64,000 nt of DNA, taken from assembly GCA_003116875.1 (NCBI GenBank), contig BCKT01000005.1, forward strand, positions 310,001 through 374,000, read 5' to 3'. The DNA is from Takashimella koratensis (Eukaryota > Basidiomycota > Tremellomycetes > Trichosporonales > Tetragoniomycetaceae). Below are positions 15,031 to 22,148 of the stretch, one piece after another. Every line of letters begins with the position of its first letter. Positions within the stretch are counted from its first letter, which is position 1. The translations under genes were made by a program, and so were the position numbers. The notes beneath the pieces were generated by a model. The model saw only the letters and a list, made by a program, of their open reading frames with translations. It was not told where the DNA came from and searched no databases.

Positions 15031-17352
15031 TCACGCCACGACAACCCCCTTGAAGACGTCCTTGCTGACCATCTTCAGCGCCTCCTCGTTCGGAGTCTTC
15101 CCTTTCTTCTTTGGCCTCTCCGCCTCCTCCTTCTCCTTCTCACCCTCCTCCATCTCCTTCTCCCACTCCTTGTCCATCTCCTCCGCCATCTCCTCGTCCT
15201 CCTCCTCCGCCTGCTGCCCCAGGAAATACTTCATCAGTGCCCCGGACCAGCCAGAGACCAACGAAATTCCCGTCTCGTCCCCTCTCGCTGGCGCCGGCGC
15301 GGCATCCACCACGTCCTCCCCTCCGACCAAGTTCCAATACACCAGTTCAGGCATATCATAACCGGCCTCGACAAACTTGCGCTTGATCTTGGCGTGCTCC
15401 GACATGTGGTCAACGTCTTCCCCGCCAGCTTCGTCAAACTGCATATCAGAGAAGACGAAGAGCTTCTTGACCATCTTATCGCGCGCAAGGCCGTCTCGGA
15501 CCGCGATGGAGAGGATGAGGTCGAATACCTTCCAGAAGTTGGTCTCCATTCCCCAGTCGGCTTGGTGAAGCCGCCCCGCTCGCTCTTCGAGAGGAAGCGA
15601 AGGGTCGACAAACTGGTAGGACGGGTTGCTGGAGAAGGTGAAGAAGGCACCGCGCCAGGGGGCCTCGGACAGCTGACCCAGGAGCAAGGTGAGGGCGATG
15701 CAGACATCGATAGGTTGAGGCTGAGCCTTGTTCTTGTTGTATCCAAAGGACCCCATCGACCCCGACACATCGGCGATCGCGATACAGTTGGAAAACTGGC
15801 TCGACGACGACGACGCTACCGCATCCACCATCACGTCCCACTGAAGGTTGGCGACTCGAGCGAACGCTGGGTGCTTAGGGTTGACCACGTCCATCAACAT
15901 CTCGTGCGGGAACAAGCTGGCGCCCGAGATCGTCGACCGCCCCTCCGCCACCTTGGTCAGGTACGCGTCGTAGCCCTCCGGGTCGTGGACCATGAAGTTG
16001 GCGACGTTGCGCGCCATCGCTCGGGCCGGGACCTTGGTGTAGTCGATCTTCCAGGGGCCGTGGACCATGGCTACCTCGGGGACGCTGAGGGCCTTACGGA
16101 GGGGCGAGAGCACCTCCTTCTGCAGCCGCTGGCGAGCGCGTCCGACCTCGACGCTCGGGAACAGCTTGATCGCGAGTGCCGAAGCGAAGAACGTCTGCCG
16201 GTCGATCCCGTGCGCAGGGGTAGGCGCCCACTTGCCCGCGAACGACATCCCAAAGAGGTGGGGCGAGGCGTCACCCTTGTACCGCCCTCGCTCGGAGGAA
16301 GGGAGCTTGAGGAACGCCGCGTGCTTGGCGAGAAGGTCGAGGTCGGCGCGGAGGTAAGTGACGAAGATGTCGAGCACCTGGAGGTAGAGCGCGGTGAAGA
16401 CCTTGTCCACGACCAAAGCTCGCTCGAGGCGCGCCTGGAACAGGTCGTGCTTGGCCTTCGGGGTTCCAGCGCGGAGGATCTTCCAGTGGAAGCTGTCCTT
16501 GTCGTACCCCTGAGCTACCTTACCCAACCGCTTGAACCCGGACCGGTCCCGAAGGTGCTTCTCGCCGCCCTCGGACGCCTTCGCCTTGGCCTCGCGATCG
16601 GCTCCGAACACCTTGGCGAGCGAGGACGGCGCGCAGGTCTCTTCGACCGACCGGGTAAGGTTCTCGTACGACCCGTCGAGTTGGCCATCGAGGCGGTAGA
16701 CGAGGAGCTCGACGAGGTCGTCGAACGATCCGTGGGGGCGGGCCGGGTACTCGAGCTCCTCCTCCTCGTCGAGGTCCATGACACCGAGGTCGGCGTCGGC
16801 GGCAGCGGCCTTCTTGGCGGCTCCCTGGGCGTCGCGCTTCTTGCTCCTGGGTCGGGGGCAGAGGGGGTCGACGAGCAAGTGCAAGTTGGCGAGCATCACG
16901 TGCGGCGCCTTCTCGAGCAACCAGCCCATGGCCACCCGCCAGCACACCCGGTCGCCTTTGCCCTCGTGGATCGAACGCTGGTGGAGGATCGCCTTGACAG
17001 CCGCCTCGGCGTTCTCGATCCATGCGCGGTCGAGCATCCCCCGAAGTTCCGAAGGGTCGGCGGCGCCAACGTCGAAGCTGAACATGAGGTCGGTGATCGC
17101 CGAGCCGGTGGTGGAGAAGCCCGCGCCGCCCTTGTTGGTGACCGCGTCAGGGGTGTTCCAGAGCGCGGCCATAAAGTCGTTCGACCCGGAGCCGGAGGCG
17201 CCGGCGGGGTTAATGAGAGGAGGGGTAGGGGTAGGGATGGGGGTGCGGGGAGGAAGGAGGGAGGTGAGGGTGGGCTCGAGAGGGGAGGTGAAGAGGGCGG
17301 TGAAGGACTCGGGAAGAGCCCAGGTCTTGCCAGACTGCTTCGAGGTGGACAT
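15031..17352 (-). CDS. DUF2828 protein with von Willebrand A domain
   Basis: A single uninterrupted frame of 773 residues, the only long intronless gene among the conserved genes here. The N-terminal two thirds match the DUF2828 family, a TROVE-like helical-repeat region, with NDFMAALWNTPDAVTNKG near the start. A VWA-like domain follows, with the metal-binding MIDAS signature DVSGSMG around residue 527 and KKLFVFSDMQFDEA further on. The C-terminus is a charged, Glu/Lys-rich tail. Members occur in fungi, plants and bacteria. The likeness to Ro60-type proteins suggests RNA binding, but that is inference and no reaction is known. An exact TTTGCCACC motif lies 107 nt upstream of the start. Confidence 0.9.
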   Translation of the reverse strand: MSTSKQSGKTWALPESFTALFTSPLEPTLTSLLPPRTPIPTPTPPLINPAGASGSGSNDFMAALWNTPDAVTNKGGAGFSTTGSAITDLMFSFDVGAADPSELRGMLDRAWIENAEAAVKAILHQRSIHEGKGDRVCWRVAMGWLLEKAPHVMLANLHLLVDPLCPRPRSKKRDAQGAAKKAAAADADLGVMDLDEEEELEYPARPHGSFDDLVELLVYRLDGQLDGSYENLTRSVEETCAPSSLAKVFGADREAKAKASEGGEKHLRDRSGFKRLGKVAQGYDKDSFHWKILRAGTPKAKHDLFQARLERALVVDKVFTALYLQVLDIFVTYLRADLDLLAKHAAFLKLPSSERGRYKGDASPHLFGMSFAGKWAPTPAHGIDRQTFFASALAIKLFPSVEVGRARQRLQKEVLSPLRKALSVPEVAMVHGPWKIDYTKVPARAMARNVANFMVHDPEGYDAYLTKVAEGRSTISGASLFPHEMLMDVVNPKHPAFARVANLQWDVMVDAVASSSSSQFSNCIAIADVSGSMGSFGYNKNKAQPQPIDVCIALTLLLGQLSEAPWRGAFFTFSSNPSYQFVDPSLPLEERAGRLHQADWGMETNFWKVFDLILSIAVRDGLARDKMVKKLFVFSDMQFDEAGGEDVDHMSEHAKIKRKFVEAGYDMPELVYWNLVGGEDVVDAAPAPARGDETGISLVSGWSGALMKYFLGQQAEEEDEEMAEEMDKEWEKEMEEGEKEKEEAERPKKKGKTPNEEALKMVSKDVFKGVVVA

Positions 17353-17458: not shown

Positions 17459-17467
17459 TTTGCCACC
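17459..17467 (-). promoter_or_regulatory. PACE-like nonamer upstream of DUF2828 gene
   Basis: The plus strand reads TTTGCCACC, the exact complement of GGTGGCAAA, which in budding yeast is the Rpn4-bound proteasome-associated control element. Relative to the minus-strand DUF2828 gene it is in the forward sense, 107 nt before the ATG. A direct regulator in this fungus is not known. Confidence 0.4.
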
Positions 17468-18009
17468 CAATTTCGAATTTCGAACCACCCAACGAGCTCT
17501 TGCTTGTCCGACTCGAGAGCGCAGTGTGTAATCCCCAGAGCGGCATTTGCAAACGCGGGGCAAGTATCAAGCTCCGGCCGAGGGAGTGAGGGACGGCCGG
17601 GCGTCAAATCATGCACCGGCGGTCTGTGTCGTGCACCTCGTTGTAAAACTAGTTTACTACCGAACGGTCGACAGCGGCCCAATCATCATCACCGCCGGCT
17701 TGCGACTGCCACAAACCCCGGCTCAATGGACACAGGAAAGCGAACGATACACGGCGTCAGGGAAGTGCAAAGAGCTCGGCGGGTGCAGATTCGGCGCTCT
17801 TTTGCAAAAGATGCATTGGCAAATACACAGACCATCGACCGAGGCATTGGCAACGACGTGAACCAGAGAGGTTAAGCATGACCAAAAGAAGGGTAGGTAC
17901 GAATGGTGGATTGGCACTTTGGATACCGGTGCCGAGAACCGCCTCAGGGTCGGAACAGGGCGTCGGCATCTTCGAGTCGATCCGGCGGGGGAGAGTAGTG
18001 AATCTGAAA

Positions 18010-18018
18010 TTTGCCACC
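18010..18018 (-). promoter_or_regulatory. PACE-like nonamer, second copy
   Basis: An exact TTTGCCACC on the plus strand, about 300 nt before the first hairpin element and directly after a CTGAAA stretch. It is one of five exact copies in 2 kb. Confidence 0.35.
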
Positions 18019-18318
18019 CAACGAGGGATACCTCGCGACACCGAAACCGCCAATGTTCTTCGCCACCGCCCCCACGCCACTGAGAACGCTCTGGTACTTG
18101 TTGGTGGCGGGGAGCGTCATGTTACAACCCCGGACGGAGCTTGGGTCCATTGCTGCTCAAACAGTGAATAAGCACCCGGCTTCTTCGCCACTCCACCGAG
18201 TTATCTCCTGCACAGTCAAGACCACCTGTGACCACCTCGAGGCAAAACTCAACGTGCGGAGTATCCATCTCTGCCCTATGCATTCTTGAGCAGGACCACC
18301 TCCCCATGCAAAGGCAGG

Positions 18319-18372
18319 GGCCGCGTAGCATAACATTACCATTCAGCGTTTCTGTTCTGGAAACGCGCGGTC
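18319..18372 (+). ncRNA. Hairpin element copy 1 (putative small RNA)
   Basis: The arms are 18319-18325 (GGCCGCG) and 18366-18372 (CGCGGTC). The hairpin is 18347-18365, with CGTTTC pairing to GAAACG. The linker is the shortest of the set (21 nt). An upstream AT-rich box TATGCATT begins at 18277, and T5 lies at 18393-18397. Confidence 0.5.
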
Positions 18373-18553
18373 GATTCGTTCATCTGGTTCAGTTTTTGTC
18401 TGTCCTTTAGAAGTGAAGCAGACTGCACTCGACGTGAAGAAGTAGACGAATGGGTGAGAAGAGGAGCGAGAGGCTCAGAGGGGAGCGCTGGGTCACCCAT
18501 AGCTGCCCGGGAGGGTATATCAAGGGTGACAAAAATACATCGTATGAGTCAAC

Positions 18554-18623
18554 GGCCGCGTAGCATAATCGTAACAACTCGTCCATCGCCCGAAACGTCT
18601 CTGCATTGCAGAGGCGCGCGGTC
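18554..18623 (+). ncRNA. Hairpin element copy 2 (putative small RNA)
   Basis: The arms are 18554-18560 and 18617-18623. The hairpin at 18596-18616 has a 9-bp stem (CGTCTCTGC with GCAGAGGCG, one G-U) and a 3-nt loop. A TATATC box sits at 18516 and T7 at 18643-18649, the strongest terminator-like run of the set. Confidence 0.55.
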
Positions 18624-18785
18624 GACTCGTACTCTCCTCTTCTTTTTTTCTTTTTGCTCCTCTTCTTCCCTACATCCTCGCGACTAGGTCTGCTGCACCC
18701 CCCTGCCTTTCGGGTGGAAGGCGGAGGGGGAAGGGGGGCCGGTACTTAAACCCTTTTTTGGGAGACAGGATATAGGAGGGTCAGC

Positions 18786-18850
18786 GGCCGCGTAGCGTAT
18801 TCGTATCTTACTCAAACTCAATCGTCTCTTGGTGTAGGAGACGCGCGGTC
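18786..18850 (+). ncRNA. Hairpin element copy 3 (putative small RNA)
   Basis: The arms are 18786-18792 and 18844-18850. The hairpin at 18823-18843 pairs CGTCTCT with GGAGACG around a 7-nt loop. The A-box-like segment is TAGCGTATT. An upstream TACTTAAACCC box begins at 18743 and is shared with copy 4. TTTT lies at 18859 and T5 at 18887-18891. Confidence 0.55.
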
Positions 18851-19035
18851 GACTCTTCTTTTGTCATTCGTCTTTCCTTCGTTCCCTTTTTGCGTCTCGG
18901 TAGCTTCCAGGGGAGGATAGGGACGGCGCGCTACGGTGTGAGAGGAAGAGGAAGTCAGGGGGGGAAGAGGCGAGTGAGATTTTGAAATCGCAGAGGCGTT
19001 GGGAGTTTGTACTAGCTAAGCCAATGGTGGTTCGT

Positions 19036-19044
19036 TTTGCCACC
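19036..19044 (-). promoter_or_regulatory. PACE-like nonamer, third copy
   Basis: An exact TTTGCCACC on the plus strand, 172 nt before hairpin copy 4. A TTTTGAAATC stretch lies about 60 nt upstream; a similar stretch precedes the 19445 copy. Confidence 0.35.
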
Positions 19045-19207
19045 CGGGCTGCACACTCTGTCGAGGAGGTGTTAGAAGTTTGTATCGCCTCTCAACACCC
19101 TGACCTCGGTCGTCGATATGGCTGAGTTTGTACGACACTCCAGGGCCGAAGGGCCGAGGGAGCGGTACTTAAACCCACTTTTGGGGTAGAGGGTATAGAA
19201 GGACTAT

Positions 19208-19279
19208 GGCCGTGTAGCATAACAGCCTACATCAACAGACTTGTGAGCTCGCCCGGTCTCAGGGCTTGGGCGCGCGGTC
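19208..19279 (+). ncRNA. Hairpin element copy 4 (putative small RNA)
   Basis: The 5' arm is GGCCGTG (19208-19214), which still pairs with CGCGGTC (19273-19279) through a T-G wobble. The hairpin at 19250-19272 pairs CGCCC with GGGCG. The upstream box TACTTAAACCC begins at 19166, and T6 lies at 19307-19312. Confidence 0.5.
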
Positions 19280-19444
19280 GATTCTTCTTTTATTGTTCTT
19301 GTCTCCTTTTTTGCGCCTCGGATGGTACAGAGGAGGCAGGGACGGGGCTCAAGTAGCTGGGGAGGCGTGAGAGAGGGAGAGGGGACGAGAGAGGGAGGAG
19401 AGGAGGGGGCGAGGCAAGGGATTTGAAATGACCGAGAATCTGCA

Positions 19445-19473
19445 TTTGCCACCACCTCTGTCATTTTGCCACC
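19445..19473 (-). promoter_or_regulatory. Pair of PACE-like nonamers
   Basis: Exact TTTGCCACC copies lie at 19445-19453 and 19465-19473, 11 nt apart and in the same orientation. They precede hairpin copy 5 by about 320 nt. A TTTGAAAT stretch lies just upstream. Confidence 0.35.
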
Positions 19474-19791
19474 CGCTTTGCCTCGGTCCCTATCGAGTGG
19501 GGACTGAGGTCGTACTCGCCTCTCGACACTATAGGCTCTGCCGTTAAGACCTCTAACCCTTGGTGACTGAGCAATTCTTCATCCGTCTTGTAACGCAGTC
19601 GATAGCTCTAGGCAGACAGCATCCTCCTCCACTCGCTCTGATTGCGCGAGGAGGAGAAACCAAGCTCTTGCTATCCCCGCAAACCTCCTCGAAGCGCATG
19701 TACGGCGACAAACTGTCCCAAATCCAGCACCTCGTCATCCACGCTCGCGCGCGGTATGTAAAGGCATATCTACACAACACCCAAGTTAAAT

Positions 19792-19860
19792 GGCCGCGTA
19801 GCAAAAACCCACATCGCACAGCTTCGGCGGATCTCGTCAGACGTGAACTGGCGCGCGGTC
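19792..19860 (+). ncRNA. Hairpin element copy 5 (putative small RNA)
   Basis: The arms are 19792-19798 and 19854-19860. The hairpin at 19835-19853 pairs CGTCAG with CTGGCG, including a compensating G-U. The box after the 5' arm is TAGCAAAAA, and the 3' arm is followed by GGC rather than GAY. An upstream TATGTAAAGG begins at 19755, and T5 lies at 19887-19891. Confidence 0.45.
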
Positions 19861-20130
19861 GGCTTACCGTCGCACCATTTCTCTTCTTTTTGTCGCTTCC
19901 CTTACCTCACACTCCCCCTCTGGCTTCCGCTGCTTCCCTCTCGTCCTGGGCGCAGCTCTGGTGCTTGAACCCGAGTTGCCAGGCGTTGTTTTGGGTCAGG
20001 GCCGCACGGTGCACGGTGCAGCAAGGAGCAAGGCGATGATCGAGTCGGGATTGCCAATTCGCCACTCTCAGGAACAACACTGCAAGGCTATATCAAGGCT
20101 TTTTAGAGACCTATAGCAAAATGTTAGAGA

Positions 20131-20200
20131 GGCCGCGTAGCATAATCTTACAGCCTGTCACGCTCCACTCCGTTCCCACACTTAGAAGGAACGCGCGGTC
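20131..20200 (+). ncRNA. Hairpin element copy 6 (putative small RNA)
   Basis: The arms are 20131-20137 and 20194-20200. The hairpin at 20171-20193 pairs CGTTCC with GGAACG. The upstream box TATATCAAGG begins at 20089 and matches the box of copy 2. T5 lies at 20226-20230. Confidence 0.55.
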
Positions 20201-20424
20201 GATTTTCAATTGAAGAAGCTCTAGCTTTTTGATATCTTTTGTCCCAGCTGCGGCTGGGCTGCACCGGTCGCTGCTTGATCATGTACCATCTTCCCACAAC
20301 GGGCTGGTCATTGAATGGGGTGGTGGAGGAAAGAGTTGCTAAAGCCTGGTCCGTCCCCAATTTACTCAAGAGCGGAACAGTCGAAGTACAAGAAAGCACT
20401 TCTCCATTATGAACAAGCTGAAGA

Positions 20425-20499
20425 GGCCGCGTAGCATACTTTGCCGTCCGCTCTATTGAGCTTAAAATTCCGTCCAGGTGAGAGCCTGGACGCGCGGTC
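20425..20499 (+). ncRNA. Hairpin element copy 7 (putative small RNA)
   Basis: The arms are 20425-20431 and 20493-20499. The hairpin at 20471-20492 has an 8-bp perfect stem (CGTCCAGG with CCTGGACG) and a 6-nt loop. The linker is the longest (39 nt) and may hold a second small stem, GCTC-TATT-GAGC. An upstream TACAAGAAAG begins at 20387, and T5 lies at 20525-20529. Confidence 0.55.
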
Positions 20500-20530
20500 G
20501 ACTTTCTTCCAAAAGGCTTCTACCTTTTTG

Positions 20531-20925
20531 CTTCCGCCTGTGTCGACACATGTGTCGATCGGTCCGCAATCACCTTCCTCGCCACCCACCTTTTGCTGCA
20601 GTGTGTCCCTATTCACACCCTCCGCCACACTGACAATACAGGAGGGGTCCACCTTTCACTTTGTGAAGCCAGTGACGCCAATCAACTCAGCCGGAACGAG
20701 GTACGCCATAGCATGAGTCCAGGTCGGTGATAGCGGTCTGTGGGACGTCTGGTCGAAGTTGCGCTTCCTGGCGCCCGACGCAACAGTATGCTCTGGCTGG
20801 AACGGTGACAGTGCCACACTGTTCCGATCAGACCTATTTCTTCCGACATCTCCAGGCACACACATCTCAACTTCTCAACCGATCGTCATCTCTTCATCCC
20901 TCCCCCTCCTCCACTCCTCCACACC
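20531..20925. promoter_or_regulatory. COQ4 upstream region
   Basis: This segment runs from the last hairpin terminator to the COQ4 ATG. It ends in a CT-rich leader typical of fungal promoters in this window. A partial motif TCGCCACCC at about 20579 resembles the PACE-like nonamers. No gene was seen. Confidence 0.5.
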
Positions 20926-22148
20926 ATGGCGTCCCAGTCTATCTCCTCCATGTCTTCCACAGCACACCTCCTCTCTCGTCGCCTTCGACCCCTCGCCTCG
21001 TCCTCGCGCCGCGTCCTCACCCCTTCCACGGCTCGAACAGCGCACCTCAGCTCGACCGCTCCTTCCCCCGCCTCCGCGTCTGCTTCCACGTCCACGTCTG
21101 CGTCCGACCTCGGCTCGGCTCGAGGACCAAGCGAGCCCTTTGTACAGGCTGAGACGGTGGACGGCCGAAGAGTCAATTACCCAGGTCATGTACCGTTGAA
21201 TACGTTGCAGAATGCCGTATTGGCTGTTGGGAGTGGAGTTATGGGTGTTCTCGATTACACCCGAGGTGGTGAGTTCTGTAGTCTCTACTCTCTTCATTCT
21301 GTTCTCCATGATCGTGCTCTCGCTGTCGTACCATCACGATATATTGTGCTGACCATGTTCTGGTCCTTGTCTACTAATTCTTTCGCAGACCTCATCGCGA
21401 CCTTGTCCGAATCAACAGCATCAACCTTCCTCCCTTCTCTACACCAATCGATGACCGCGCACCCGGAAGGCAGGCAGATCTTGCGTGATAAACCCCTCGT
21501 ATCGTCCCAGACGGTCGATATTGAAAAGCTTGGGCAGTTGAGGCGGGGGACATTAGGGAGGGAGTACTTTGAGTGGTTGAAGAGGGGCGATATCACACCC
21601 GACTCGAGAGCAGAGGTGGGTGGGTTCGAAATTCTCATAACATGGTGCATTTGTGCTGAACGTACGACCTTCTTATCACCTCGTTCGCGCAAGAACAGGT
21701 TCACTACATTGATTCTCCGACACTCGCGTACACTATGCTTCGATATCGCCAGACTCACGACCTCTACCACACTCTCTTCTCACTCCCTCCTACGCTCGTA
21801 CACGAGCTCTCCCTCAAAGTCGTCGAGTTCTCCAACATGTCTCTCCCCGTTGCTGCCTTGTCCTCGACTTTCGGACCCCTCCGACTCTCGGCGAAACGGC
21901 GTGACATGTGGATCCGGGACTGGGTGCCCTGGGCGCTACGTGTAGGTAGGGAAGGGAGGCCTCTGGTGGGCGTGTACTGGGAGAAGAGGTGGGAGCAGGG
22001 GATCGGAGAGCTCAGAAGGGAATTGGGAGTAAGGAGGAATGATATGGCGAGAGTGGAAGGGAGGTGGAGAGGGTATAGGGAGGTGAGGGAGGAGGAAAGA
22101 ACAGCCAGGCGGAGAGGAGAATGGGTGGACGAGCCGGAGGAGTGGTAG
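20926..22148 (+). CDS. COQ4: Coenzyme Q biosynthesis protein COQ4
   Basis: Three exons (20926-21268, 21389-21615, 21699-22148) encode 339 residues. The first 45 residues are rich in Ser, Arg and Ala with almost no acids, a plausible mitochondrial presequence. The body shows [20 protein letters not shown] and the Zn-ligand signature HDxxH-x11-E, complete here as HDLYH followed by 11 residues and Glu. Coq4 organises the CoQ synthome on the matrix face of the inner membrane and has been linked to removal of the ring C1 carboxyl group. The C-terminus is unusually Arg/Glu-rich. The ATG chosen is the first in a CT-rich leader. Confidence 0.95.

Follow-up and report, generated by a model that had tools for sequence, protein, structure and literature searches.

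In this study, we analysed a window of 64,000 nucleotides (nt) from the fungus Takashimella koratensis (contig BCKT01000005.1, positions 310,001 to 374,000 of the forward strand) and describe a cluster of seven short elements near a gene for a DUF2828 protein. We consider it likely that small non-coding RNA genes make up the cluster, that RNA polymerase III (Pol III) probably transcribes them into RNAs of about 80–110 nt, and that these RNAs are Y-RNA-like partners of the adjacent Ro60-like DUF2828/vWA protein. The elements have a terminal stem, a fixed motif, compensated hairpins and T runs; the adjacent gene is the sole DUF2828 gene found in the genome, and its product has a Ro60-like predicted fold; and elements of like layout lie beside most of the viral DUF2828 genes that we sampled.

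An earlier note on this DNA had described seven same-strand copies with shared ends, and a pattern search of the window found all seven on the forward strand (Table 1). Each consists of GGCCGCG, a motif directly after it, a variable stretch, a hairpin, CGCGGTC and then G. The arms GGCCGCG/CGCGGTC form a 7-bp terminal stem in all seven elements, including copy 4, whose altered 5' arm (GGCCGTG) keeps its pairing through a G-U wobble as had been proposed. The motif inside the 5' arm is TAGCATAA in 4/7 elements, with the variants TAGCGTAT in copy 3, TAGCAAAA in copy 5 and TAGCATAC in copy 7. The shared ends were thus borne out for the arms, and the G after the 3' arm is present in 7/7; GAY at that place holds in only six copies (copy 5 has GGC), and the 5' motif is exact in only four. 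The interiors, including the linker, vary in sequence and length, also as the note had it. Open reading frames (ORFs) within the element stretch are short, and the stretch is flanked by the DUF2828 gene on one side and by a Coq4 gene (ORF from 20926, forward strand) on the other.

The hairpin lies immediately next to the 3' arm, without any intervening base, and its stem has 6–9 pairs when GU pairs are allowed. The seven hairpins together hold 54 pairs. Among 1000 dinucleotide-shuffled versions of the interiors, the mean was 23.3 and the highest count 36. Pairs 1 and 2 are invariant (C-G and G-C), while pairs 3–6 vary with pairing kept, each with two to four pair types. Taken singly, six of the seven hairpins had p < 0.05 (copy 5, p 0.054). 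The folding energy z-scores of the whole elements were -2.35, -2.38, -3.02, -1.10, 0.08, -1.37 and -4.75 for copies 1–7, so that the fold of copy 5 is not better than its shuffles. These results show that the stacked hairpins of changing sequence but kept pairing are real, and the compensated hairpins, together with the T runs described below, support selection on the RNA structure of the elements.

With up to 3 mismatches allowed, the window has 8 matches to GGCCGCGTAGCATAA, where 0.86 would be expected, and seven of these are the copies. With up to 2 mismatches, the whole genome gave 17 matches, 7 from the cluster and the other 10 all with 2 mismatches; the reversed-pattern control gave 26 genome-wide at the same setting. 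We also built the covariance model suggested in the earlier note. In a search of the window alone it recovered all seven copies that it was built from at 55–71 bits, and the next match scored 8.5 bits. Genome-wide pattern searches placed the full element signature only in this cluster.

Transcription of the elements by Pol III is likely, judging from their sequence signals. A run of at least five Ts followed by G occurs within 45 nt of the 3' arm in 7/7 elements, against 0.8% of the 45-nt stretches of the window. The runs begin 19–35 nt past the 3' arm and its G, giving units of 79–106 nt when counted from the 5' arm up to the G behind the T run. As a yardstick, 30 of the 37 tRNA loci found were read, and T5 was present in 27/30 and T5 with G in 22/30. 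At the 5' side, TAGCATA matches the first half of an A box: TRGCNNA is present in 7/7 elements, with a purine next in 5/7, and it starts at +8 as in tRNAs. TRGCNNA follows the tRNA A-box consensus; this genome's own version is TAGCTCAGTGG. The 3' arm with GAYTC is B-box-like with one core T changed to G, and scored at most 6.3 bits, whereas 29 tRNA B boxes scored 11–17 bits; copies 5 and 7 have their best B-box match elsewhere. TATA-like sites with p < 0.05 were found before 3/7 elements (39, 18 and 15 nt upstream of the arm in elements 2, 3 and 4), and we give them little weight because a free motif search of the seven upstream regions did not recover TATA. Among other Pol III yardsticks, U6 was found (2 matches) and the signal recognition particle RNA was not found; neither settled the promoter type.

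The neighbouring protein was compared with known structures through its AlphaFold model. Ro60/TROVE structures were the top PDB matches by Foldseek over residues 64–716, at 11–14% identity, and the model has a predicted HEAT-repeat ring and vWA fold as in Ro60. It contains low-confidence stretches, the longest inside the domain being 239–297. The DVSGSM of the protein is a MIDAS-type motif. By sequence, the protein differs from Ro60 and Rsr (TROVE + vWA) in belonging to DUF2828/DUF7788 and not to TROVE PF05731, which had no match in the genome nor among the domains listed for this protein. The gene was the sole DUF2828 match found in the genome (25.1 Mb). Its predicted start codon lies 966 nt from the cluster, and the seven copies span about 1.0–3.1 kb from that start.

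At E ≤ 0.01, a tblastn search with the fungal protein matched 662 phage records along with 4 plasmids, with 24–37% identity among the matches listed, and some phage DUF2828 matches already carry the public annotation 'Ro-like RNA binding protein'. Against viral contigs, protein P0001 as a single query gave no relative; alignment A2 gave relatives. We sampled the best 80 of at least 569 matches from the A2 search, together with 12 annotated DUF2828 loci. We read six gaps beside such genes, and in five of them there are elements whose stems reach at least 7 pairs, laid out as a stem arm, up to 3 bases, ACAGCAA, a variable middle, the complementary arm and G. Such elements numbered 104 in 59 of the 92 loci; the gene's strand carried 95 of them and the opposite strand 9, and G followed the 3' arm in 90. 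In a check with less bias, ACAGCAA was, among its 105 letter permutations, the best for a preceding arm with a downstream complement (103 versus a mean of 23.9).

We trained a covariance model, R1, on 42 of these viral elements. Of the 104 elements, 53 were retained for lying on the + strand, being no longer than 85, having G behind the 3' arm and being dissimilar. A further 11 were then excluded manually, with no rule set down; these were chiefly longer elements, variants with GCAGCAA and one near-duplicate. Because the selection of elements is biased, perfect pairing in the phage alignment was not relied on, and the permutation check and the R1 counts were used in its place. R1 gave 112 matches in 63 of the 80 viral loci, every one on the gene's strand and 104 within 700 nt of the DUF2828 gene. 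In loci without a training row, it gave 68 matches in 40 of 57. Some of the loci behind the R1 counts and the permutation check are near-copies of each other. Since elements or R1 matches adjoin most of the sampled viral DUF2828 genes, a DUF2828 protein with adjacent Y-RNA-like elements is an arrangement that recurs among these viruses.

At relaxed thresholds, Rfam gave RNA matches in 6 of the 12 annotated loci (YrlA in 2) and in 7 of the 80 viral loci (YrlA in 1). YrlA (RF02553) overlapped one element in L046, two in L053 and two in L118, all below the gathering score, and L053 had a further match, also below it, outside the listed elements. The matches at L053 1473–1795 and L046 4343–4476 begin past the ACAGCAA-type motif of the surrounding element, which suggests that the Rfam model does not include the terminal stem and motif. 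In viral contig L118 (2599–6544), which has two YrlA matches, tRNA genes are interspersed with Y-like elements around the DUF2828 gene. In Listeria phage P100, the DUF2828 gene has a ROOL RNA match (L048 509–1060; 86 bits, below the gathering score of 99.1) about 1 kb on its upstream side, and a few genes downstream there is a 'tRNA splicing ligase' gene.

Compared with the viral and plasmid elements (L046–L137), the fungal ones share a terminal stem of about 7 bp, a variable middle, the G after the 3' arm, a fixed unpaired motif with AGCA just inside the 5' arm (6/7 in the fungus), a similar length (commonly 50–70 nt in viruses), tandem copies (often in viruses) and the place beside a DUF2828 gene. 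AGCA and G together accompany 26 of 4201 seven-bp window stems of element-like length outside the cluster (0.6%). The two sets differ in that viral ACAGCAA lies a few bases past the arm whereas TAGCATAA follows it directly, that viral arms vary whereas the fungal arm is nearly fixed, and that in the fungal copies a hairpin stacks on the 3' arm and a T run ends the unit. The earlier note knew of no RNA family with this layout. The Rfam search that it called for agreed to the extent that no credible family was found in the cluster at gathering or relaxed thresholds, but the layout is that of the elements beside viral DUF2828 genes and resembles Y RNAs generally. Relaxed matches to mir-1282, sR52 and sR44 were rejected as far below their gathering scores, and a tRNA or tmRNA identity was rejected because ARAGORN found no cloverleaf and RF00005 no match. 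YrlA matches some phage elements beside Ro-like genes below threshold, but it had no match in 17600–21000 at E ≤ 5. Like metazoan Y RNAs and nematode sbRNAs, the fungal elements would give RNAs of about 100 nt, likely from Pol III, with a 7-bp lower stem pairing the ends, a variable interior, clustered genes and a partner of predicted Ro60 fold. Their folds lack the bulged C and the 3-nt opposite bulge beside the 7-bp helix, and they have no credible Rfam match. Vertebrate Y genes use external promoters, whereas the fungal elements carry internal promoter-like boxes.

Table 1. Positions of the seven elements and associated features in the window
Feature	Position	Strand	Arms	Hairpin	T run	Remarks
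Y-RNA-like element 1	18319..18373	+	18319-18325 / 18366-18372	18347-18365	T5 18393-18397	motif TAGCATAA 18326-18333
Y-RNA-like element 2	18554..18624	+	18554-18560 / 18617-18623	18596-18616	T7 18643-18649, then TTTTTG from 18651	
Y-RNA-like element 3	18786..18851	+	18786-18792 / 18844-18850	18823-18843	T5 18887-18891	motif TAGCGTAT
Y-RNA-like element 4	19208..19280	+	19208-19214 / 19273-19279	19250-19272	T6 19307-19312	5' arm GGCCGTG, G-U wobble
Y-RNA-like element 5	19792..19861	+	19792-19798 / 19854-19860	19835-19853	T5 19887-19891	motif TAGCAAAA; GGC after 3' arm; weakest fold
Y-RNA-like element 6	20131..20201	+	20131-20137 / 20194-20200	20171-20193	T5 20226-20230	
Y-RNA-like element 7	20425..20500	+	20425-20431 / 20493-20499	20471-20492	T5 20525-20529	motif TAGCATAC
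Ro60-like protein gene, DUF2828 (PF11443) + DUF7788 (PF25043)	15031..17352	-				773 aa, contains DVSGSM
TATA-like site GTATATCAAG	18515..18524	+				begins 39 nt before 5' arm of element 2
TTTGCCACCC interval	17459..19474	+				all 4 exact window copies: 17459, 18010, 19036, 19465

Other sequences in the stretch were also noted. All four exact copies of TTTGCCACCC in the window lie between the DUF2828 gene start and the fifth element, as do two one-mismatch copies, and TTTGCCACCC is possibly a regulatory site shared by the protein gene and the RNA genes. Just 5' of elements 3 and 4, the 52-nt stretches 18728–18779 and 19151–19202 are 77% identical and both contain GGTACTTAAACCC; they may be a trace of local unit duplication.

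Several results weigh against a Y-RNA-like role. Model R1 had no match at the seven fungal copies (E ≤ 10, filters off, in the window), the elements are on the forward strand and the DUF2828 gene on the reverse whereas the viral matches follow their gene's strand throughout, the fungal elements lie further from the gene than the viral ones, and the Foldseek TM-scores against Ro60 are low. Because of the missing R1 match, the strand and the distance, our claim is one of Y-RNA-like function and does not extend to proven membership of a named Y RNA family; our confidence was also lowered by the low TM-scores and by the difference in strand. The same missing match and strand relation would fit Pol III genes, tRNA-like or snRNA-like, that have another function and lie beside the DUF2828 gene by chance, and the T runs and A box point to Pol III regardless of what the RNAs do. 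We regard this explanation as unlikely, because one cluster and one DUF2828 gene were found in 25.1 Mb only 966 nt apart, which by random chance would be expected about 1 time in 10,000, and because viral relatives have a like layout beside a DUF2828 gene.

Two other explanations are less probable still. The elements might act as DNA, as cruciforms or TFIIIC-only sites that insulate or regulate between the DUF2828 and Coq4 genes; the A-box-like and weak B-box-like sequences would suit such sites, and the palindromic arms could extrude, but T runs in 7/7 elements and a strand-specific layout would not be expected of them, and we hold this very improbable. Least probable of all is the suggestion of the earlier note that the variable linker serves guide or antisense RNAs that target other RNAs, which found no support here, although no search was made for complementarity between the linkers and other transcripts. 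The linkers do differ in sequence and length, but no snoRNA family matched at gathering score, sR52 and sR44 reached only chance level at the relaxed threshold, and Y RNA loops also vary, being usually variable according to passages of PMC4726728.

If the elements are Y-RNA-like partners, the DUF2828 protein would bind both the 7-bp stem and the unpaired TAGCATAA, and each RNA would have a handle of its own in the stacked hairpin and variable middle. The RNAs may act on a Ro-type ring protein with a role in handling defective or structured RNAs, by gating, stabilising or retargeting it, and seven versions could yield seven differently addressed or gated complexes. The conserved ends would serve promoter and protein together if, as may be the case, TAGCATAA is also a tRNA-type A box and the 3' arm plus GAYTC is also a degenerate B box. 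More broadly, we lean towards the view that fungi have Ro ribonucleoproteins (RNPs), with DUF2828/DUF7788 as the fungal Ro60 (and, by extension, that of other DUF2828-bearing eukaryotes). It would share ancestry with a Ro-like protein that is widespread in phages and is accompanied there by short Y RNAs of its own, and the ends of fungal Ro-binding RNAs would have been co-opted as an internal Pol III promoter, giving rise to a seven-gene Y RNA cluster.

A second result of this work is that short Y-like elements with a common ACAGCAA signature lie beside DUF2828 genes in most of the sampled viral loci. The fungal protein, with its predicted Ro60-like fold and its probable RNA cluster, stands under two 'domain of unknown function' names; if our interpretation is true, Ro RNPs reach fungi, a function is suggested for two uncharacterised Pfam families (DUF2828 and DUF7788), and a microbe is available for testing the open question of Y RNA function. 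If experiments confirm it, the cluster is a fungal version of the Ro60/Y RNA system of animals and bacteria.
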